From NCBI GenBank assembly GCA_000827205.1, contig KN832569.1, positions 136,647-200,646 of the forward strand: DNA of 64,000 nucleotides. The letters are read 5' to 3'. The stretch comes from Plicaturopsis crispa FD-325 SS-3 (Eukaryota; Basidiomycota; Agaricomycetes; Amylocorticiales; Amylocorticiaceae). Positions 14,481-52,216 of this stretch are shown one piece after another. Under the pieces are notes generated by a model. It was not told the origin of the DNA and searched no databases. It was given only the letters and a program-made list of their open reading frames with translations. Each line of letters starts with the position of its first letter. Position 1 is the stretch's first letter. The position numbers were made by a program, and so were the translations under genes.

Positions 14481-15144
14481 CAAATTCCACAACTGTATGT
14501 AACATTTATTATTATGTTTTGCTTCCTTGTGCCTCGCCGAGGGCTTCTGATGATGCTCATTGTTGAGGTGCGTTCTTTTTTCCTCCGCTTTCTTTAATGA
14601 TCACCACCAACTCGAAAGTGTGAGTTGACTGTAGTCGCCGCCATGAGCGGGGGCCAGTCGATGGGTTGCTTTATTGTGTGGTCATTCCATGAACAGTCAT
14701 TGTCGATGCGCACTGTTGCTGATCATTTATTTAACCAGCAGGCACCTGTGTCTCGCGAGATCATGTTCAAGCTAGAACTTTAATCAAATCCTGCCCGAGC
14801 GCTCTTACCGCGCTCATCTCCGCTACGACACGGCGAGCTCTCAAAAAAACCACCGCATGCACGGTATGCACAACACCCCCTGCGAATAATTAGAGCTGCC
14901 TGACAGGGCGTTCCTGGTAAAACCTCGGGTCGAGGCCAAGACCCCAGCCCAGGGTCACGTCCACCGTGACGTCTCTCGCACATCCCCCTTCGTTCTGGCT
15001 GTCCCGCTCTTCCAGCGCGATGCTTCCCGCATCCGACATCGTATTTCTGGGCGAGGGTATAAAGACGGCGTTTTGTTTTTTTTGGGCAGGAGTAACTGAC
15101 CGCCGTACAGCTGCAGTTGCCCCCTTTCCCCTCGTTCATTCAGT
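14481..15144. other. Upstream region of the first PriA-like gene
   Basis: No gene is supported. The stretch contains the TATA box listed separately; otherwise I see no repeat or motif. Confidence 0.4.
15058..15064 (+). promoter_or_regulatory. TATA box of the PriA-like gene at 15145
   Basis: TATAAAG lies 87 bp upstream of the ATG in a GC-rich context (GAGGGTATAAAGACGG). The inverted paralogue has a TATA-like site at a similar distance. Confidence 0.6.
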
Positions 15145-16160
15145 ATGCGTGGATTCACCAGCTTTGTGCTCGCCGCGCTCTCCGTGCTCTCTGCAACTGG
15201 TGCCTATGCCCAAGGCCACCTCGGACGGCGCGCGCTGCTCGATGTCTGTGCTAATGTAGACGTGGACCTGAACGTCCTAGGGATCGTCTTCGGCAAAATC
15301 GGTGAGCCCGTTGAGCAGAATAGCCGTCTCGTATATCGCTTGCTAAAGTTTCAATGAAGATGTATGCCTGTGTCTCTCCGCCATCCCTACATTTCTAGAG
15401 ACGAACGTCGTGGCCATCGCCGCCGTCGACCTGCTCGGCATCGCAGACGTCACCGCCGCCCTCACAGCCCTGGTGAGCCAGCATCACGATTCTACTACTC
15501 CGTCGCACCATCACTGACGCACGTCGCACAGATCAACGCCGCCCCCGACCACAAGACCTGCCACTACCCCGACCACGCCCTGCCACAGTGCATCCCCGGC
15601 TCCCCCTGCGGCTTCAGCTGCAGCGACGGCTTCGTGCCCTCGCTCCCGCAGGACCCCACGCAGTGCGTCTGCCCCGCGGGGAAGAAGGTGTGCAACGGCG
15701 TGTGCACGAGCGCGCCGTGCCCGAGCGGCCTCAGCAGCAGGAAGCGCGATGTGCAGCAGATGCAGTATTGGGCGCAGTGCCCGCGCGAGCTGAGGGCGTG
15801 CGGGGTGTATGGCGGGGCGGCGCGCGCGTGGGAGTGCGTGGATACGGAGAGCGATTTGGAGAGCTGTGAGTGACGTCGGGGTGGGCATGCGTATGCCTGT
15901 GTTAATGTTTTTTTTCCTTCATAGGTGGCGGTTGTGCGATCCCGCTCTTCGACAAGGCGCCGAGCGGCGTGGACTGCACGGCCCTGCACGGCGTCTCGGA
16001 CGTCGCGTGCATGTCGGGGCACTGCGTCGTGAAGCGCTGCATGCCCGGGTTCGAGCCGTCCGTGGACGGGTCCGTGTGTCTCAGCGAATCTTCGCAGGGG
16101 CACGGCATTGCTGAGGCGGTCGAGTACGCAGTCGAGCACCTGCCATTCTGGAAACATTAG
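15145..16160 (+). CDS. PriA/CPL1-like secreted cysteine-rich protein (copy 1)
   Basis: Four exons (15145-15301, 15360-15472, 15532-15865, 15925-16160) encode 279 aa. A signal peptide, MRGFTSFVLAALSVLSATGA, is followed by a segment with DVCLCLSAIPTFLE. The C-terminal CPL1-like domain is rich in paired cysteines: TQCVCPAGKKVCNGVC, then CPRELRACGVYGGAARAWEC, then ESCGGC and a last Cys module with DVACMSGHCVVKRCMPGF. The family includes Lentinula PriA and Cryptococcus Cpl1, which are secreted or cell-surface proteins; the biochemical role is not known. A KKR-type basic site (SSRKRDV) lies mid-protein and could be cleaved by Kex2. The C-terminus is about 20 residues longer than in the paralogue at 19175. 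High expression would fit the TATA box. Confidence 0.85.
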
Positions 16161-19174: not shown

Positions 19175-20149
19175 CTACTGGGTATATTGGCTGAGACAGA
19201 GATCTCCGTCCACAGACGGCTCGAAGCCGGGCATGCAACGGTTGACGACACAGCGACCGGCCTTGCAGGCCACATCGAACACGCCGTGGATCGCCGTGCA
19301 GTCAACGCCGCTCGGCTCCCTGCCAGAGAGGGGGTTCAGCTCAATCACGCAGCCGCCGCCTGTAAAGTGTCAAGCATCAGCACACGCCCACACACACACC
19401 ACAGCGCATTACTCACAGCTCTCGAGGTCGTTCGCCGTGTCAATGCACTCCCAGGCGCGGGACGAGCCGCCATACACGCCGCACACGCTCTGGCCGCGCG
19501 GGCACTCCGCGGTGCGCGCCCAGTAGTTCGCGTCGCGCTTCTTGCCGCTGATCAGCCCGCTCGGGCACGCGTCCGCGGTGCAAACGCCGTTGCACACGTT
19601 CATGCCATCGGGGCACACGCACTGGGTGGGGTTCGCAGGGGGAATCGCAGGGGCGGGCACGTAGCCGTCGCTGCAGGTGAACGCGCAGAGGTTGTCGGTT
19701 GTGCATTGCGGCACGGCATGGTCGGGGTAGGCGCAGTCCTGTCGGTCAGGCGAGCGGTTGATCTGTGCCGGGAGGAGGGGGCGTCAGAGCGGTATGGCAA
19801 TAATGTGCGTTGTCGTCGTACCAGAGCTTCCAGGGCACCGACGACCCGAGTTGGGCCAAAGACGTTGACGGCTGAGCTGGCCACAGCGTCTGTGCGCTCG
19901 AATGCTCGGAGGCCAGAGAAACAGAGACACGAATCTGTTTAATATTTGGTTAGCCTGATATACGCGGAATTTTTGCCGCTGCACAGGCTTACCGATTCTG
20001 CCGAAGTTGACACCGTTCACGACCAGGTTTGCGTTGACATTGCCGCAAATGTCTTCGAGCGCCCGCAATCCGAGGTGACCCTGGGCATAAGCCCCAGTCG
20101 CAGAGAGAACGGAAAGCGTAGCGAGCACAACGTTTGCAAATCCACGCAT
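19175..20149 (-). CDS. PriA/CPL1-like secreted cysteine-rich protein (copy 2)
   Basis: Four exons on the minus strand (20149-19993, 19934-19822, 19762-19417, 19359-19175) encode 266 aa. Exon 1 is 157 nt, exactly as in the paralogue at 15145, and the signal peptide is nearly the same (MRGFANVVLATLSVLSATGA). Exon 2 gives DSCLCFSGLRAFERTDAV. Exon 3 carries the CPL1-like cysteine pattern TQCVCPDGMNVCNGVC and CPRGQSVCGVYGGSSRAWEC, and exon 4 has CGGC and DVACKAGRCVVNRCMPGF. It ends CLSQYTQ without the longer tail of copy 1. Conserved exon borders show the two genes arose by duplication. A basic GKKRDA site could be a Kex2 site. Confidence 0.85.
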
Positions 20150-20213
20150 TTTAGGGCAAGCGAATGTGGGGGTGCAGGTCGGACAACGGGGATTCCACGA
20201 CTGGGCGGGCCAT

Positions 20214-20223
20214 GCTTATATGC
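20214..20223 (-). promoter_or_regulatory. TATA-like box of the PriA-like gene at 20149
   Basis: On the minus strand GCATATAAGC lies about 65-75 bp upstream of the ATG, comparable to the TATAAAG of the paralogue. Confidence 0.5.
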
Positions 20224-21283
20224 TCGGGGAAAGGGTTTCGATATTGCGGTGTTTGCACTTGTATGAATGAGGCATCGCGCTGGAAAAGTGGAAGCGCTAG
20301 AACGAAGGTGACAAGCGCGGGGAGGTGAGATTGTATGATCCTAGCCTAAGTTCTAGCTTGGGCCGAGGATTTGCTGGGAACCAGCTGGCCCTGGGATCCG
20401 TCTCTAGTTATTCGCTTACCGCATTTCTACCGTGTGGTAGTCTTCGACGTCTTCGTCTTGCGAAGATAAGCACGGTAAGACCGCTCGACGAGCTTAGTGT
20501 CAAAACCTTGAACATCTTGCACAGAGCCACCATCATGTTTACTGTTGAACAGGCAAACAGCAAAAAAAGTGAGCATCATTATTAGGTATATAGCACAAGG
20601 AAAAGCACACCACTGGCGAGCCTTGGAGGAGTCCAAGCTCATGGCAACGATTATAGTTAGCTCATGCTCAAGAGTTGCTTAAGAAAGCACTTTGAAGTCG
20701 ATTGCTATCGATATTCGGTTCCCCCGAGGGCACCGAGCGGGATTCATCTTCTCAGCCGACGCCAAAGCCGAACTGTATCTCCTCTGGAGGACGATGGCCC
20801 TCGAGCTCATGTACCTCGCATGATGCTGACGACAACGGCCACGGCCATCGTCGATGCTCTAGTTCCAGTATTAAGTTCAGCCTGAGAACAGGGCCCAGGT
20901 GAGGAGGCAAACGGACATACCTGTGAAATGCGCGCACACAAAGATTTCCGATTCCACGACTTTTCAGTTTAAACTTCAAAGACCAATCAGACACTGATAG
21001 AAGTAAGTACTCACTGCGGGATACAGCAGGTTGCCGACGTGTGGCGCGGTGCCTTTACCGTGATGAGCAGTGCTGCGCGGAACGGAATGAGAATTGGGTA
21101 CGAGGATTGTAGACTGCTCGAAGCGTTCCGCCTGCCAACACGTACTAGGAACCGCGCAGCTGGAAAATGATGGCAAGTGGAAGGAAAAGATCTGACGACG
21201 TAGGCTTCCAGGGATATAATGCATAAGTACAACGCGACGAGCAAGTCAAATACAACATGAGTGATAAAGCAACAGCAGTGAAA
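20224..21283. other. Intergenic region
   Basis: About 1.06 kb between the PriA-like gene and the 3' end of the F-box gene. Small frames lack domain features. No repeat or RNA gene seen. Confidence 0.4.
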
Positions 21284-22834: not shown

Positions 22835-24757
22835 GATTGCGAATGCTGAGAGACGACATGAACGTCAATAGGAGAGCAACAGGAAAGAGCAGCGACAAAC
22901 CTTTGGTGTTCAAGGGATTAGTGGCAACAAAAATGATCAATAGTTCATACCTTTCTATGTCACTGACTTATATCTCTACGCGAATGAGGATGCCAAAGCG
23001 AACTAGGCTGTCCCTTTGGCATAGCTGCCTTTGGCGCGGAAGCTTTCTCGGCCAAATGCCCATTGTCTAGCTATGACAAGAAAACGTGAAAAGAGAACTG
23101 AGGGCTTTCCAATACTCGCCTTGACCTTGAAACGGTGTCCCGTAAGTTGACTGCCATCGCTGTGCCATCGTCCCGACATGAGGCACACGTTTACTATCAT
23201 TGCACGGGTCTTCGACACTGGGACCAGAGTTCGACAATTCACTTAAATCGCTATTGTATGCTCAACACTTCATCCTTTTGCCTAGTTCTTTTTTCTGTAT
23301 ATGCTCCTGTATGCCTAGAATACATCTGTGAAGCGGAAATTTTAAAATACGAGGTGCTACCGCCGTGAAAAATGCAATGGTGGCGAAAAAGCTTCGATCT
23401 GATGTTGCCTTGGCCGGTACTTGACTCAGTGGAGATATTTTCCTCCAAAAAATTGGCTCGGTTATCTTTCATGCCATACCATTGCACTCGTCAATTTTCA
23501 GGAAGAAAGGAAGGGTTGTGCTTGTTGGAGAGAGAAAAGCACCCTCAAGCGTGACATTCATGCGCGGCAGCGCGCCCATATTCAGACTCCGTCATCCGAC
23601 ACAGCTGCTGAGAGCTTATAGCCGAGTCGGAGTTCAGTCGCGGCAGCCATCCGAGGCGTGACATTCCGTGACAACTGTGTCGAACTCTAGTGTCCGACAC
23701 CATAGCGTGCCGACAGCGCTCTACTTCATCTTTTCGTTCCAAAAAAATCGGAGCCATGAAGGCAAGATGCTATTATTGATGACGGAGTAGAAACGGAGAT
23801 GAAATGTTATGTTGTGGAGGAGCAATAAAAAGTTTCGCAAAAAGTGTCGAAGTCCCGTACAGTGATAGTACCAACCACAGGTTGCATCCAACTTCCTTAG
23901 ACAGGAGACGGACGTATTGTAGGCATTCGCGATGAAGACGGTCTTTCTCGAGTCTTTCTTGAGCTCGAGGTCGATGTTTTGGATGACTTGGAAAAACTGA
24001 CCGCCGACGACAGCCGACGAATTGGGAAGCGCGTCCGTGCCACGAGGCTCGTGGGCTCGTGGCAAGCTCGTGGCGTCGACTCCGAGCTGAAACTTCGACG
24101 GTCAACGTTTCACCAACAAGCATTCGACGGACTTCAACGGGCTGCATACCAGCGAAGTGGGGAGAAAATCCTGTATCTCAATCCTCGGTACTATGACGGT
24201 GTACGCGAAATCGACTTGGACCATCGGTATGATAAGTATTTCGGACGGCACCAACACAACGGGGGCTAACTTCAAGGACGTGCCAGCGCCCAAACTTCGA
24301 TAACGGAGCGTGCATTACTATCCGTCGACGGACCAACGATGTCTTTAGGTATCAATACTATAGTCAGATCAAGGTCAAGACGATATAACTTCACAAAAAG
24401 AACGGGAACCTTTCGAAAAGATGCGGCGTTAAGTTCCTCCGCCTGATTTCCTTGTGTGATACTTACGAAGCTGATCACCTTCTTGCAATGGATGCACTAT
24501 ATGGTTACAATAATGTCAGCGCAGAATTGCCGAAGCGTCAGTGTGGCGGCGTTCAGATGCAGCGTAACGGCGTTCCAACGGAAGTGCCGATTTGGGTCAT
24601 TGTAACGGTGAACGCGGCGTCACAGTATAGGCTATTGTTAGGTGTGGACTTCCTTGCCGAGGTACTCATAGGCTGTGGACAGAGCCTACAACGACCCCAC
24701 CACACCAGTTTTATAACCGCACTAATCTTACCATCTATCCTCTTCAAACACTGAACG
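22835..24757. other. Long intergenic region with a small inverted repeat
   Basis: About 1.9 kb without a supportable gene. It contains a 28-bp imperfect inverted repeat, 23192-23219 against 23843-23870, with 25 of 28 bases matching by eye. GCTCGTGG recurs several times near 24045-24075. A TATA-like ATAA at 24712-24716 belongs to the gene at 24758. Confidence 0.4.
24712..24716 (+). promoter_or_regulatory. TATA-like element of the gene at 24758
   Basis: TTTTATAACC lies about 42-46 bp upstream of the proposed ATG in otherwise mixed sequence. The spacing would give a short 5' UTR. Confidence 0.35.
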
Positions 24758-28659: not shown

Positions 28660-30337
28660 TCAATACTCGTCTGTGAGGTCGTTGAAGACCCACTGCAAGT
28701 TACCGCGTCTGCCGTCGACGCACGCAAAGAAGCTAGCCGTCCCAGAGTACTTCTGTGCCCGCTCAAGATCGATAATGCGCCATTTGTGCGCGCGTTTGTG
28801 CCGAGGACATATCGCAGCCGACGTAGATGCTCCGACGGCACATATGTTTTCGTCCCGAATATCTCGGTGCAACAGGTGTAGCCCGCTGAGATCCTCGTAC
28901 AGAGCCATTACGTCCTTCCTAGAGTAGCGCCGGTCAAGACTTCGACAAGTACTCACCATATTGATACGACGTACCGGATAAATTTCGTCAGCTTTGCACC
29001 GTAGGGGAGGCCGCTCGTCTTCAGCCGCTCAAGGAGTAGAATGCACACGCGCTCCGGATTTGCCGCATCTCGAACCCTGCGATTGAGGTCTTCATAATAC
29101 GCATCTGAATTGCAGAATTCAGGTCGGGAATGCTCCTCGTAGCGCATCGCCTTTTGATCGACGTCGAGCGTGCACCCGTCGGCAAGACGGCCCTCAAAGG
29201 CGCCGTAGCAAAGTGGAACGACTACGCCTTGCAAGGGCTCTACCTCCTGGTAAGCCGATGCCTCGGGGCTGATACGACTCTGGAAGCCGGTCCGAGCGAT
29301 TTTGGCTACCAAGGGAGGGAGATCTACGTCCGATAATGGGTGACTTCCCGTAAGGATTAACAGACGAATTTTCTCTAAAATCGTCTCTAAACTGCCCTCG
29401 GCATCTCGGCCAACAAAATATTTGATCCAAATCGTCAGGGAGTGTATTTTTAAGTCGTTCTAAACCTGCAGGTTTACGAGGGGGTCAAGACCCTCTCGTA
29501 GACTTGAAGTTATCGGAAATGATGGCAAAAACCTCGATTGGGCGTGTCAACCACGCGTTTTTGCCCGATCCTCTTATAGCGGATCTCGAAATTCACTGCC
29601 GAAGCGATGCCGTTGCCCTCCAGATGGCTGATAATTTAGAGAATTTGGGCGTTACGGTTTACAGATCTGCTCGTCACTTTGCTCTAAATTTCCTTGGAAA
29701 CCATTTAGAAAAACGAGACTGTCTCTAAATCCTTACGGGAAGTCACCCAATATCTTGACGGTGTAGACGAGACTGCAGCCGCCCGATCCGAGCTTCTTGC
29801 CCAAGGAGATGCGGACATGCATGTTTCCAGGCGGGGGCAATGTCGACACGACGGGAGGGAGAGGAGCTGGTAAAGCTTCCAGGTCAGACGAGGGTCTCTT
29901 TATTTCCATGGTAGGCGGCGAGACTCGATGCATGAGCAAATCAGGATGTGCGCCCGTGATGGTGATGCATTCGATCGCATTGATAGCCTACAGGTATTGA
30001 TGCACTATTAGGCGACGCAGGTTACATAGAGCATGCATGTGCTCACGAGGGGAGAGGATGTCGTGGCCGGCGGTTGGCGGACAGTTGGCTTGACCTTCTC
30101 TTTCGTCGCGGATTTGGACATGTCTCCGTGCCGTTTAGTTGGCTTGACCTTCTCTTTCGTCGCGGATTCGGACATGTCTGTGTGCCGTTTAGTTGGCTTG
30201 ACCTTCTCTTTCGTCGCGGGTTCGGACATGTCTGTGTGCCGTTTAGTTGGCTTGGCCTTCTCTTCCGTCGCGGATTCGGACATGTCTGTGTGCCCCTTAG
30301 TTGGCTTGGCCTTCTCTTTCGTCGCGGATTCGGACAT
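28660..30337 (-). CDS. Protein-kinase-like gene carrying a MITE, possibly spliced out
   Basis: Minus-strand exons 30337-30047, 29987-29737, 29343-28975 and 28918-28660 make a 389-aa frame if the MITE is removed as an intron (29736-29344). Exon 1 is mostly five 18-aa repeats (KRHTDMSESATKEKVKPT type). Exon 2 holds the glycine loop, LGKKLGSGGCSLVYTVKIL. Exon 4 has the catalytic-loop motif HLLHRDIRDENI and WRIIDLERA in place of DFG, so it resembles the small kinase-like families of basidiomycetes more than a standard Ser/Thr kinase. Removing the element plus one target copy also restores an open frame, VKILSDVDLPPLVAK, which shows the gene was whole before insertion. If the MITE is not spliced, translation stops within its terminal repeat just after VKILGDFP. 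Confidence 0.7.
29338..29748. mobile_element. 411-bp Harbinger-type MITE
   Basis: The ends are inverted repeats starting GGGTGACTTCCCGTAAGGAT. The 3-bp direct repeat AAT flanks the element at 29335-29337 and 29749-29751. No transposase is encoded. Subterminal CTCTAAA/TTTAGAG motifs occur several times near both ends. A palindrome at 29473-29502 (TTTACGAGGGGGTC / GACCCTCTCGTAGA, spaced by two bases) is the reverse complement of one in the autonomous element at 51782-51811. The left end resembles the right end of that element, and the right end resembles its left end, so the MITE is an internally deleted copy lying in the opposite orientation. Confidence 0.9.
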
Positions 30338-30353
30338 GTCTGCGTGCCGTTTA
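30084..30353 (-). repeat. 54-bp coding minisatellite, five copies
   Basis: Five direct copies of 54 bp start at 30084, 30138, 30192, 30246 and 30300. They differ at a few bases and encode the 18-aa repeats at the N-terminus of the kinase-like protein. The repeat is Lys/Glu/Ser-rich and probably disordered. There are no unique spacers, so it is not a CRISPR array. Confidence 0.9.
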
Positions 30354-30895
30354 GTGATACAACGTGATATTGGTACCAGTGAGACAGACCTAGTAGACCT
30401 TGTGCGAGCCAGGTGCGAGCTTCGTATTCAAGCCACCTTCCAGTTTTGGCTAGGGAAGGATCACTGTCTGACAGAGGATGGACTTGGGTATACAGTTTGT
30501 AGGTTGGGATACAAGTTCAACCAACACGAAACGTGAGCGCGTGAGCTGACACGACTAAAAGTCATGATCAGGTCATGGTGTAAGCGCTAAGTAGCGGGAA
30601 TCGAAAGTCGCGTTGCGAACACGCGGACGAGCGGGACCCCTCGGAATAATCATAATAGCACCCCTTCTACTATTATTTCACAACAAGTTAAATTGCACCG
30701 TAGAGTCAGGAGAACAGAAACAAAATAGCAACATAACAAGCACAACAGAGCATAGTAACCTACCGCATAACGAAACAATAATCGAGAACATAACAGTAAC
30801 TTGTATAACAGTGTCCAGCTCGGACCGCCCAGTAATCGTACCCCACCATCGCGTGAGTGAGTTTTCCACCTCACCCCGGCCGGATCGTAAACCTC
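30354..30895. other. Intergenic region
   Basis: About 540 bp upstream of the kinase-like gene and downstream of the Ser/Pro-rich gene. From about 30675 to 30810 it is A-rich with recurring AACATAAC and AACAA. No gene seen. Confidence 0.4.
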
Positions 30896-46359: not shown

Positions 46360-47522
46360 ATGTCTTTCAACGCTACCGCCGCGCCTCTCACACCGGAGAG
46401 TCTCTACGCCCACACCGACTTCTCCCAGCTGAGTTTCCTGGAGCAGCAATGGGCGGCGTGGTATTTGTGGATTGGAAACCCCATTATTGCAACGGGGCTG
46501 ATGAGTTTTCTCCTGCACGAGGTGTGTACTGAGACTGTCTTTCTTGTTGGCTTTTTCTAACGGCGTATCAAGATCGTATACTTCGGACGCAGCGTCCCGT
46601 GGATCATCATAGACGCAATCCCATATTTCAGGCAATGGAAGCTGCAACCGAACAAAATCCCTACTAAGGAGGAGCAGTGGGAGTGCACAAAGCAGGTCCT
46701 GTTTTCCCACTTCACCATCGAGTTGCCTGCAGTGCGTTGTTTCCGTTTCTAAATACCCTCCCCGGCGTTGGCTAAGTGACGCGACCCCGCAGATCTGGCT
46801 GTTCCACCCTATGGCTGAAAACCTTGGCATGGCGACATGGCAGGTTCCTCTGCCTGACTTCAGGGCTATGCTCCCGCAACTCGCGATATTCTTTATATTT
46901 GAGGATATGTTCCACTACTTCGCGCACCAGGCCTTGCACACCGGCGCCCTCTACAAGCACATCCACAAAATCCACCACAAGTACTCTGCACCCTTCGGTC
47001 TTGCCGCTGAGTACGCGCATCCCGCCGAGGTGTTCATCCTCGGCACCGGCACCATCGCAGGCCCCATACTGTACTGCTACTTTGCACGCGACCTCCACAT
47101 TTTCACTGTCTACGTGTGGATTACTCTTCGCTTGTTCCAGGCCATTGACGCACACAGCGGTTATGGTGAGTTTCAGCAATATATCTGCTTTCTGTTGCTG
47201 ACTGCGCTTTACAGACTTCCCCTGGTCCCTCCAGCACATCGTGCCCTTCTGGTCTGGCGCGGAGCACCACGACTTCCATCATATGGCGTTCACGAACAAC
47301 TTCTCGACGTCATTCAGGTGGTGTGACCGACTCTTTGGCACAGATACCAAGTACCGGGAGTACCGCAAGCGCATCGACGCCGCTAAGAAGGCGATGAAGG
47401 GTGCGAGTGAGGCCGAGAAGAAGGAAATGGAGCGCAAAATGATGGATGAGGTTGAAAAGGAGGGCATTCGGGCTGAGGCTGAAGCCGAAGGGAGCCTTCC
47501 GAAGACCGTCAAAGTCCAATGA
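46360..47522 (+). CDS. erg25: C-4 methylsterol oxidase Erg25
   Basis: Four exons (46360-46521, 46573-46731, 46793-47165, 47215-47522), starting [20 protein letters not shown]. The fatty-acid-hydroxylase/sterol-desaturase histidine boxes are complete: HYFAH, HKIHH and HDFHH, set in [19 protein letters not shown] and [20 protein letters not shown]. Hydrophobic segments lie near [19 protein letters not shown] and [19 protein letters not shown]. In the ER membrane Erg25 oxidises the C-4 methyl groups of 4,4-dimethylzymosterol on the way to ergosterol. The C-terminal tail is Lys/Glu-rich and longer than the yeast KKXX end, with no obvious dilysine signal. Confidence 0.9.
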
Positions 47523-47829: not shown

Positions 47830-48040
47830 GGGTGACTTCCCGTAAGGATTAACAGACGTTGCAGCGTTTCTAAATGGTTGCCATTAGATTTTGATGAAAT
47901 TTAGAGACCGTGTTTGGAGGTATCTTCAAACCGTAAGACAATAAGCTGTAAAAGTTGCATGAAAAAAGACAGATCTGGCGAGATCTGTAATGATCTGTTC
48001 GATAAGATTCACGAACGCGCGCCTGCTGCTAGACGTCGAC

Positions 48041-49401
48041 ATGTCGGATCCCGCTGCCCTCAACCAGGCGCTCGCGTTGCTCGACGCGGGGGACGATGAA
48101 GAATTATACATGCGAGCAGCGCTCGCCGTAGTTCTACTGCTAGGAACTGAGGATGTACGTCTTGAGAGAGCTGCTCGACGCAATCCTTCGCGTCTATATT
48201 TGCGGCGTCCCCAGCTTCTACCGAATCCTCGCATACTCTCAGCATGGCAGCGACTCTACGAAAGCCAGGATGACCGTGCATTTATCACGACCATGGGATT
48301 CGACGTCGACACATTCCAGTTGCTGCTCGATAGCGGGTTCGAAGAAAAGTGGAACGCAACACCCATTCCCCGCTCCGATGTCGCAGCCTCAGGCCAACCA
48401 CGCCTCGGTGCCCGCTCCCTTGACGCTTCGGGCGCGCTAGGCCTTGTTCTACACTGGCTCAACTCTGCCATGCTTGAACACAGCTTGCAGCTGATTTTCG
48501 CCCTAATCCCTACCACTGTCTCCCGCTACCTTGACTTTGCACGCAGGATCTTGCTTGAAACTGTGCGCGCAATGCCCGAGGGTGCTGTGGGTTTCCCCAA
48601 GACTTTGGAGGAGTATGAAGAGAATTCGGCACTCATCGTGGAACGGCATCCTCTGCTCGAAGGTGCATTTGGTAGTATCGATGGGCTAGGGCTTTTGGCG
48701 CAGGAAGCAGTGGATCCCGAGATGGAAAATGCGACTTACAATGGGTGGAAAAGTGGGCATTACTTTAACAACATCCTAGCGTTCTCACCACAAGGTAGTA
48801 GATCATTTTGTCACTGCCAGTGCATCTGCAAAGCTGACAGGAACATCTTGTAGGGATAATTATCGCTGCTGTCTTGAACTCTCCAGGCAGCTGGCATGAT
48901 GCACATGTTGCTCGCCCAGTCTTCGAGACGCTACGAAGATTTACGCCGGAGGGGTATTACCTCGTCGCCGACACCGCATTCCCTCGTGGTACTGCTTCGA
49001 TTGCAGGGAAGATCAAAGCCCCTCTCAAAGGTGGTCAGCGAATAACTGCGGATCCCACTGAACAACAGCGCATCATGCGTTATCAGAGGCAACTTCTCTC
49101 CTATCGCCAAACCGCTGAGTGGGGAATGCGAATGTTCCAAGGCTCGTGGGGTCGCCTCCGTGTACCGCTCGACGTGAACGACGAGGGTGGACGGAAAGAG
49201 CTTCTCGAGCTATGTGTAAGGTCATCAAACGTACGCACCCGATGTGTTGGTATTAACCAGATCCGTAATGTGTACATGCCACGGTGGCAGGAGTCTGAAG
49301 ACGAGCGGCTATGGACAGACCTGCGGAACATGATGTTCAAGGACATTCGAAGGACGGAGAGGGTGTCGCGTTACCATCTTGTAATAGAGGAAGACCCATG
49401 A
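48041..49401 (+). CDS. Harbinger-type DDE transposase
   Basis: Two exons (48041-48794 and 48854-49401) encode 433 aa; the intron joins LAFSPQG to GIIIAAVLNSPGSWHDAH. The N-terminal part has RRNPSRLYLRRPQLLPNPR and a helical region that reads well as a DNA-binding segment. The catalytic core shows GAFGSIDGLG (first Asp), YLVADTAFPRG (second Asp) and QTAEWGMRMFQGSWGRLRVP (Glu), the usual DDE layout of DDE_Tnp_4. I see no stop or frame break. It cuts and joins the element ends, normally with help from the Myb-like partner on the other strand. An in-frame ATG at 47990 is an alternative start. Confidence 0.88.
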
Positions 49402-49506
49402 TGAATTGAAGGCTCGCACTTAGCATTCCAGATGACTACGATACAGGCCTATGATCCATGGTAAACACTACGAAAGTCCATGAACCCAATAAGTGGAATG
49501 ATAAAA

Positions 49507-51565
49507 CTAGTTCGGGGCGGAGGGTGAGGGTGACCAAGGGATGGGGGAACTTGCACGCCGAGAGGCATACGGACTACCATTGACATTGGCAAAGTGTCCA
49601 GCGGCCTCGAGTGGAGTGGCAGTAGGGGATCCTGCCATGTCCTGGTGCATGCTGGAGGCAACCGAAGCAAGAATGCTCATAGGCCCGAGAGCAGAACCAC
49701 TAGCGATGGGCTTGCTCGGCGCGCACTTGACGAAAGGTGTCGGAGTCGGAAGGGGGTTGATGTTCTCGATATCTTCTGCGTGCGAGAGGTGCGACGCACG
49801 AGCAGGTGTGCGATACGGAGAACGCGCAGGTGCGCGGTACGGAGAACGCGCAGGTGTGCGGTACGGAGAACGCGCAGGTGTGCGGTACGGAGAACGCGCA
49901 GGTGTGCGGTGCGGAGAACGCGCAGGCGTGCGGTACGGAGAACGTGAGCGGTGAGCCTGGCGCAATGGCCTGCCGTGCCGACTGGGAGAGCCGTGTTCCT
50001 CTCCGTACCACCGACGAGCACTCCGATACTCCGAGCCACCCCCGCCGCTCATCATCTTCATCATCGCAAACTCGGACTCCGCGCGATCGGCGCGGCGCAT
50101 TTCCGTGTTCATGCGATCTGTGATAGTGTCGAGCCGAGCACGCACCTCGCGCAGCTCAGTCTTTGCATCGCGCGCCTCTGCGAGGGCAGTGGAGAGCTGC
50201 GTAGCCTGGACAGTCTGCGCGTACCGGCCCTCGTCTCGTTGTCTGACACTGGCAGGATTCAAGAGGGATGTGATGGAGGAAATAGCCTCGGTAGCGGCCG
50301 AGCCTCGTTTACGCCTCAAGACGGGGGGACCGTCCAAAGGCGGCTCGACACGGTAAGCCTTGACGAGTGTTTTCGAGCCCGACTTGGGGGCAGGCTCAAG
50401 GTCGTTGTTGTCGGATGAGATCTCGATTACGTCGCTGGCTTCGCCGTCTTCGAATTCGGGGTCGTCGAGGGCCAACGTGCCTGACTTGATCTCGATGTTC
50501 TCCTCGGCTAACCATGCATCGTGCAGGTACTGAGGGCAGTCCGCGACGCCGGTAGGCTTGCGCGTCTTCAGGAACTGCAAGGGAAAGCATAAGCGAAGGC
50601 TCCTAGACTAGATTGTGATGGAAGGAACTTACCCCGCCCTCAAACTTGGTTCGGAGGGCAGTCTGTCCGCGATCGGTGAAACCATGCGCAACAGCCCACT
50701 TGTTATACTGCACCATGACCCATTGCCAGCCCGCTTTCCCTATCGGGAGCTTCTCGGAGATGTAGCGCACAAGCGCTTCACACTCGGGGATGCTGTACTT
50801 CACGGCGCCAGGCTGCCGACCGCGCGTCTTCGCAGGCTTCGCAGCCTTTGTGACAGATCGGTCGACAGGCTCCGTTTTGACCTTGACCAGCTTCGGGGTG
50901 GGGGGCGTATCAGCTGGCTTCCGAGCCTTTTTTGCCTTCGGCTTGCCAGCGGGTTCGGGATCGACGTCGCGCGCACGCTTCTTCCCCGCCGCTTTCGTCT
51001 GCTTGGCAGCCTTCGGTTTGCGCGTGACCATGTCCGGCAGCGATTCTTCGTCGTCCGAAGGCTCGGAAATAGGCAGCGCATTCGGGGGACGCGCCATGTA
51101 GGCGGAGGTTGACCCAGCGCCAGCATTTGCGCTGGGGCTATCGACGGGGTAGCGGAAGCTGAATTCCGAGGACGGAAATCCAGCCGGCGCCGCGTTAATG
51201 GGAGCAGAGAGTCGGCCCATTCGGGGTAGCTCTGCGTGGGAACCCATGGGAGCACCGCCGTATTCGCCTGCGGCTCGTGGTGTCATCTGCAGTCGACTAG
51301 TCGAGTTGTCGAAACCGCGAAACACGGGTGTTGGTTGCGGACGAAAGCCGCTGTGCGCGGATGCGTGCATCTGAACTCCGTGAAATTAATACATGGCCGT
51401 AAAGTGAAGTCCTGCACCGCGAAGACGTACATTTTGATCATCTTCGTGGAGAAGACGGTGTCCTCCCGGACCTGCAGGAGGGTTCTCTTGATTAAACGAG
51501 CGTGAGAGCCCATTCCCGTACTCTGAAAAATGAGCAGGGCTGGGATTGTAAGAATTCTGGTTCAT
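49507..51565 (-). CDS. Harbinger Myb/SANT-like DNA-binding protein
   Basis: Three exons (51565-51431, 51370-50633, 50574-49507) give 646 aa. The start is MNQNSYNPSPAHFSEYGNGL. A Lys/Pro-rich region with nuclear signals (GKKRARD, KPKAKKARK) leads into a Myb/SANT-like domain: VKYSIPECEALVRYISEKLP, GWQWVMVQYNKWAVAHGFTD, then ALRTKFEGG joined to FLKTRKPTG. Next come an acidic stretch, a coiled-coil segment (AEARDAKTELREVRARLDTI), and a run of SPYRTPAR octapeptides. In Harbinger systems this partner binds subterminal DNA and carries the transposase into the nucleus. It is transcribed towards the transposase gene. All phases fit and the frame is uninterrupted. Confidence 0.85.
49796..49950 (-). repeat. 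24-bp coding tandem repeat in the Myb-like gene
   Basis: About six to seven 24-bp units (GCGGTACGGAGAACGCGCAG plus four bases) encode SPYRTPAR octapeptides with small variants (PHRTPAR, PYRAPAR). There are no spacers, so it is not a CRISPR array. Confidence 0.85.
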
Positions 51566-51781
51566 GGTTAAGAAAGTAGAAGGATACGAGAGATTTTTGG
51601 GTAGTGAAAGAGGGGATTTTTCGTCGACTAGCGATGATTTCAAATTTGGAAAGGGAAAGGATTGAAGAAGGTGCTCACCAAAAATCGGGACCCAATTTTC
51701 TTGATCAAGACCAGCGGAGATGGAAAATACGCGACAACGCCGTCTGCAGCTCAGTTCGAGGCGTTTACAGACGATTTGCAG

Positions 51782-51811
51782 TCTACGAGAGGGTCTTGAC
51801 CCCCTCGTAGA
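51782..51811. repeat. Internal palindrome of the Harbinger element
   Basis: TCTACGAGAGGGTC and GACCCCCTCGTAGA pair with one mismatch across two central bases. The same palindrome occurs inverted in the MITE at 29473-29502. Confidence 0.8.
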
Positions 51812-52216
51812 TGGTGGGATCAACCTGACAACGGCGAAATCTACGAGGCCGCTTTTTCCATCAGCGGACCTCAAATGTGGCATCTGGCGACACGGCATCT
51901 CGGCAGGAGACCGTTTAGAGCAGAATTTAGAGCAAAATCGTCTGTAAATCCTTACGGGAAGTCACCCAGTCCTCCAGTGATTTACAGTCGATCGCATCAC
52001 ATATGATACTTGCATCATATGCACGGTGCCTGCCCACCTACCCTAAAACGCTCCAAGTCCGGAAATCTATAGATCTGCTAGCCACTGCTTGCTGAGTCCC
52101 GACCGTACTTAGTGGCGGGGCGCGCGGATCCGCGATTTCGCCCTCTCCGTCTTGTTCTTGTCTCTGTACCATAACATTTCCTACTCATACCGCTGGGAAG
52201 GCTGGCCCTAGGCTAG

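Follow-up and report, generated by a model that had tools for sequence, protein, structure and literature searches.

The way in which genes acquire introns has long been in question, and for algae and other protists a leading answer is DNA transposons that bring splice sites of their own. A locus of the basidiomycete Plicaturopsis crispa raises the same question for a fungal element. Within the 64-kb window (the whole stretch of DNA analysed, GC 0.546), a 411-bp MITE lies in the coding region of a kinase-like gene, and the initial annotation had proposed that it may behave as a new intron, excised at splice sites carried by its own terminal inverted repeats (TIRs). The features on which this proposal turns are collected in Table 1.

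Table 1. Coordinates within the window of the MITE, its predicted splice sites, the host gene model and the related larger element.
Feature	Position	Strand	Remarks
MITE	29338..29748		411 bp; GC 0.45; inside an exon of the kinase-like gene (minus strand)
Target-site duplication AAT, copy 1	29335..29337
Target-site duplication AAT, copy 2	29749..29751
TIR GGGTGACTTCCCGTAAGGAT	29338..29357	+	exact 20-mer
TIR GGGTGACTTCCCGTAAGGAT	29729..29748	-	exact 20-mer
Predicted 5' splice site GTAAGG	29731..29736	-	score 4.38
Predicted 3' splice site AAG	29344..29346	-	score 4.32
Possible branch site TTAAT	29356..29360	-	13 nt upstream of AAG
Competing CAG acceptor within MITE	29628..29630	-	score 6.25
Competing CAG acceptor within MITE	29466..29468	-	score 7.22
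Predicted exon 1	30047..30337	-	54-bp tandem repeat; start codon uncertain
Predicted exon 2	29737..29987	-	ends 12 bp into MITE; glycine-rich loop LGSGGCSLVY
Predicted exon 3	28975..29343	-	opens with last 6 bp of MITE; PPLVAK
Predicted exon 4	28660..28918	-	HRDIRDEN and RIIDLE; stop codon
Related element	47830..51967		4138 bp; same TIR as MITE; duplication AGT
Transposase gene of related element	47990..49401	+	DDE_Tnp_4, PF13359, E 3.3e-14; three-intron model
Second gene of related element	49507..51513	-	DUF6818, PF20681; outer limits from a rough model

The MITE is bounded by inverted arms of 34 nt that are 91% complementary (29332-29365 and 29721-29754). Its perfect 20-mer TIR occurs four times in the window when up to three mismatches are allowed, all four occurrences being exact, against none in 100 shuffles. 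These four sites are the two ends of the MITE and the two ends of a 4138-bp element 18 kb away, which gives, in 64 kb, one copy in an exon and another that is apparently intergenic. When the two elements were compared with the window by BLAST, no additional copy of either came up, the remaining matches being mutual end matches, internal repeats and short ones at chance level. The 20-mer had no match in the viral contig collection or in the genome contig collection, and a pattern search of the same collections for transposase relatives gave 2 and 15 stretches, respectively, none of which was confirmed. Elsewhere in the window, at 23192-23870, a pair of inverted 28-nt ends that lie 623 nt apart, are 89% complementary and have TA on either side perhaps delimits another MITE, of a TA-duplicating family. 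At 14987-16097 and 19178-20308, several long inverted arms (40-193 nt each, 71-83% complementary) stand in mirrored order, which would suit an inverted duplication of about 1 kb that has since diverged. The domains recognised in the window, among the 20 ORFs scanned of 90 with at least 150 residues, were DUF6535, ATG22, FA_hydroxylase, Xan_ur_permease and EPL1, and ARAGORN found no tRNA in it. The DUF6535 gene and the brevity of the introns would suit a mushroom-type basidiomycete.

The MITE had been named a Harbinger element, and of this description the MITE identity stood while the family name did not. In the account of Han et al. (2015, PMC4482050), PIF/Harbinger elements produce TWA duplications, and Pangu elements, which correspond to Harbinger2 of Repbase according to Kojima (2025, PMC12730594), produce 5'-ANT-3' duplications and have TIRs of 11-40 bp beginning with AG or GG. 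Both elements of the window (2/2) are flanked by duplications, AAT and AGT, which fit ANT and clash with TWA, the signature of PIF/Harbinger in the strict sense; Pangu-type is therefore the better name. The TIR begins with GGG and its arms are about 30 bp long, and the larger element encodes a DDE transposase of the PHIS superfamily, whose match to DDE_Tnp_4 reaches 38.9 bits on a single ORF and 53.2 bits on the protein joined by the gene model (cut-off 24.8). The likeness to Pangu as described by Han et al. thus covers the duplications, the length and start of the TIR, and the pairing of a DDE transposase with a second gene. In Pangu elements the second gene has a Myb/SANT domain; that of the larger element matches DUF6818 (29.9 bits, cut-off 27, after removal of a predicted intron) and no Myb family, the group being read here from duplications, TIR and domains. 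DUF6818 itself is presumably a Myb/SANT-type domain. A 24-bp tandem array of 6.1 copies (49798-49944) also lies in this second gene. The MITE is most likely a non-autonomous DNA transposon of the PHIS superfamily, Pangu (Harbinger2) group, with only two insertions behind the ANT consensus, and the 4.1-kb element is its likely autonomous partner. Similarity between the two is confined to their ends (the best match covers 55 bp at 89%, and there is one exact block of 30 bp), which makes the MITE a relative of the larger element and leaves its origin as a simple internal deletion of that copy unsupported.

When the MITE and one duplication are removed, the minus strand reads VKILSDVDLPPLVAK with its frame unbroken. 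The exonic position claimed for the MITE was thereby upheld, insertion into an exon being one of the traits of an introner. The four-exon model was likewise reproduced: with an ATG at 30337 and introns at 30046-29988, 29736..29344 and 28974-28919, it sums to 1170 nt in a single frame with one terminal stop. The start codon is uncertain, as four other ATGs within the tandem repeat of predicted exon 1 open the frame equally well (1116, 1062, 1008 and 954 nt). This repeat (30083-30355, 5.1 copies, 94% matches) encodes 18-residue units such as MSESATKEKVKPTKRHTD. The motifs LGSGGCSLVY (with its LGSGG), VAK, HRDIRDEN and RIIDLE were read by eye and are presumably those of a kinase. For the host protein, Pfam gave only a sub-threshold match to PF17667 (10.6 bits against a cut-off of 24.1, E 0.23), and a PDB search returned no match at E up to 10. 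Supposing that the gene does encode a kinase, the insertion separates the strand of the glycine-rich loop from the VAK strand, at a place where loops tolerate changes of length.

The splice sites proposed within the TIRs were found by measurement at both ends: GTAAGG starts after the first 12 bp of the element and AAG ends 6 bp short of the opposite end, in both elements and in both orientations. As the ends mirror each other, the same donor and acceptor pair is present whichever way the element lies, in agreement with the initial annotation; in the opposite orientation the MITE scores 4.38 and 4.16. The larger element scores 4.38 with either 2.74 or 4.32. The AAG is the first AG downstream of the candidate branch site. 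Excision of 29736..29344 (393 nt) would yield VKILGDFPHPLSDVDLPPLVAK with the frame open, and the arithmetic put forward for it was correct, 12 + 6 + 3 = 21 nt being left behind as the seven extra codons GDFPHPL. Since this sum is divisible by three, an exonic insertion of such an element anywhere keeps the frame in two of three phases, the 18 nt retained from the element containing a TGA in one of the three frames. Frame keeping is thus borne by the element and nearly automatic, and says little about splicing at the host locus; expected in two of three frames for any insertion, it was dropped as support.

More informative is whether a TIR would resemble a splice pair by chance. Within the outer 34 nt, the highest score of a pair that keeps the frame free of stops was 8.71; with score tables of our own making and a comparison made after the fact, a pair as splice-like that kept the frame without a stop arose in a fraction of 0.011 of 3,000 dinucleotide-shuffled arms (outer arms of 28 nt) and 0.012 of 3,000 random arms, against 0.47 and 0.56, respectively, for a frame-keeping pair of whatever quality. 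That about 1% of shuffled TIRs are equally splice-like is suggestive, and this result at the level of the element is stronger than that on the frame. A total of 346 single introns are compatible with an open frame as far as the stop. By site score the TIR pair comes third among them, and both of those placed higher delete kinase sequence.

The sites were also set against 24 introns of the window, chosen out of 37 predictions of the same gene-finder model. Those kept came from the ERG25-like gene (3/3), the permease (8/9), ATG22 (7/7), EPL1 (4/7), the transposase (1/3) and the kinase-like gene (1/4), with none of four from the second transposon gene; the 13 dropped include predictions of 152 and 235 nt in EPL1, 272 nt in the second transposon gene, and 109 and 137 nt inside the MITE. 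The MITE donor is ordinary by this measure, 8 of the 24 reference introns being no better. The acceptor is poor, weaker than that of 23 reference introns with 1 of 24 no better, and the sum of donor and acceptor is likewise equalled or undercut by a single reference intron. The predicted MITE intron of 393 nt compares with 49-65 nt in the reference set, a range narrower than that of predicted intron lengths because the longer predictions had been dropped. Reference acceptors are CAG (14), TAG (8) and AAG (2). One AAG closes a predicted intron of the ERG25-like gene (46522-46572) that has a CTAAC branch site, and such an acceptor may therefore be usable in this host.

A home-made gene finder was also applied, a rough one for which we set the intron cost, the length model, the codon table and the splice-site tables ourselves; an early run at low intron cost gave many doubtful introns and was superseded by a later one. 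When free to choose, it took the TIR intron in none of six settings. The free parse scored 26.1 against 15.8 for a parse restricted to the TIR intron at an intron cost of -3 with the length term, and 36.2 against 25.9 without it; the corresponding pairs were 9.7 against 6.4 and 17.4 against 12.7 at -6, and 3.4 against 3.4 and 5.4 against 3.7 at -9. In the 9.7/6.4 comparison the restricted parse fell back to a fragment from 29147, below the MITE, as both parses did in the 3.4/3.4 comparison. The free choice was the pair 29736-29628 and 29596-29460 or, at the lowest cost, a larger number of introns. This rough model thus lends no support to the TIR intron over a rival with internal acceptors.

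Folding was calculated for a 491-nt stretch as RNA, which reached -166.1 kcal/mol against -135.7 (sd 6.3) for shuffles (z -4.8); the TIR stem is closed in this fold. Without a limit on pairing distance, both splice sites lie within the stem and are unpaired with a probability of 0.0; under a limit of 150 or 60 nt, which imitates folding during transcription, the donor GTAA is mostly free (0.63-0.99) and the last two donor bases mostly paired. The modelled hairpin could hide the splice sites or bring both together, and decides nothing between the readings.

The reading most worth testing is that a Pangu-type MITE inserted into an exon of the kinase-like gene with a 3-bp ANT duplication, and that the 12th/13th base of its TIR would supply a GT donor of ordinary strength, and the 6th base counted from the opposite end a weak AG acceptor. 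The spliceosome would then remove the 393 nt in at least some transcripts and leave 21 nt, so that the seven added codons would lie between the strand of the glycine loop and that of VAK, and the MITE would be tolerated as an intron-like passenger, as maize Ds1 can be. The proposal of a new intron was therefore retained in part: anatomy, arithmetic, a TIR-borne pair and published precedents speak for it, whereas the poor acceptor, the length of 393 nt, the higher-scoring acceptors inside the MITE (29628 and 29466), the full-length hairpin in which both sites would be paired and the failure of the gene finder to choose it speak against it, and the frame is weak evidence. That the TIR sites are spliced, if only in part of the transcripts, is possible, at somewhat less than an even chance.

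About as likely, and likewise short of an even chance, is plain disruption, in which a recent insertion has struck a dispensable or silent kinase-like gene and the splice-like letters of the TIR are coincidental to transposase binding. Transcripts would then end at VKILGDFP*, where the unspliced frame does stop at once, 2 nt into GTAAGG. The poor acceptor, the long distance between donor and acceptor and the hairpin all fit this account, as do the strict gene-finder settings, which lose the upstream exons and leave the fragment from 29147, and the sub-threshold PF17667 match with no PDB match, which would allow for a gene that is only weakly constrained. The exons are otherwise all open, however, with coding scores mildly positive in the right frame (5.6, 3.9 and 5.5, the last including the stop row), and the small share of shuffled TIRs that are equally splice-like argues against coincidence.

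Partial splicing, or exonisation, is unlikely. Here the TIR donor would be joined to acceptors inside the MITE, for instance by introns of 109 nt (29736-29628) and 137 nt (29596-29460), a pair which the free parse selects in three of six settings, to which it adds a third intron of the MITE region in a fourth, and on which the main gene-finder run agrees. The acceptor at 29628 outscores the AAG (6.25 against 4.32), and the joined frame, retaining MITE codons, is open through to the kinase stop. This arrangement nevertheless requires two introns with weak donors and places some 50 codons between two strands of the kinase core, and the gene finder that favours it is rough in its intron cost, length model and codon table. 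That the MITE entered an older intron with splice sites of its own in the flanks is very improbable and was rejected, given that the empty site reads straight through and so needs no intron at the insertion point, and nothing was found in its favour, the frame-keeping flank-to-flank introns that do exist having weak donors.

For the TIR intron, the layout had been likened to that proposed for introners derived from DNA transposons, and precedent exists in the survey of Gozashti et al. (2022, PMC9860276), which reports introners in 175 of 3,325 genomes. One Aureococcus family described there brings both of its splice sites along and lengthens the message by 12 bp (4 + 8). The MITE shares with such introners the TIR and the duplication and, as predicted sites, the pair of splice sites of that family's kind. 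The introners of that survey comprise many spliced copies per family, whereas here there is one exonic copy with predicted splicing; the fungal introners it names belong to Pezizomycotina and are described as lacking TIRs and duplications. The maize element Ds1 can behave as an intron (Dennis 1988 and Wessler 1991, as cited in PMC3260210), with donors 12, 22 or 33 bp from its end (PMC5432752). Both Ds1 and the MITE are exonic, non-autonomous DNA transposons of about 400 bp whose splice sites, predicted ones in the MITE, lie fewer than 35 bp from their ends, with a donor 12 bp in. Unlike the MITE, Ds1 is a hAT element with an 8-bp duplication and splice sites reported, in these sources, for one orientation only, and its splicing was demonstrated by RNA, that of the MITE being predicted from sequence.

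Among fungi, Lim et al. (2021, PMC8476143) name PIF/Harbinger as one of the elements present in 15 introns of recent gain from 12 genomes, and warn that repeats may have entered those introns afterwards; PIF/Harbinger sequence is what they have in common with the present case, section 8 of that paper giving no splice-site anatomy. The symmetrical stwintrons of Hypoxylaceae (Fekete et al. 2021, PMC8469720) are also fungal and have terminal inverted repeats of 45-55 nt; as described there, they differ from the MITE in that they lack a target duplication, integrate seamlessly and work on the coding strand only. Searches of the open-licence literature for introners together with PIF-Harbinger, or for a Harbinger MITE together with intron gain and splicing, found nothing, which is no proof of absence. 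Work by Huff in 2016 is reportedly also among the precedents.

At present, the locus stands as one predicted case. It is improbable, though of wider consequence, that a Pangu-type family in this basidiomycete bears mirror-image splice sites by which each exonic copy is spliced out in either orientation, adding seven codons and keeping the frame in two of three phases. If true, this would amount to an introner family derived from DNA transposons in a group of fungi for which the survey of Gozashti et al. names none, with its autonomous source still nearby. A fungal element combining TIRs, a target duplication, a likely autonomous partner and splice sites of its own would then make intron formation directly testable.
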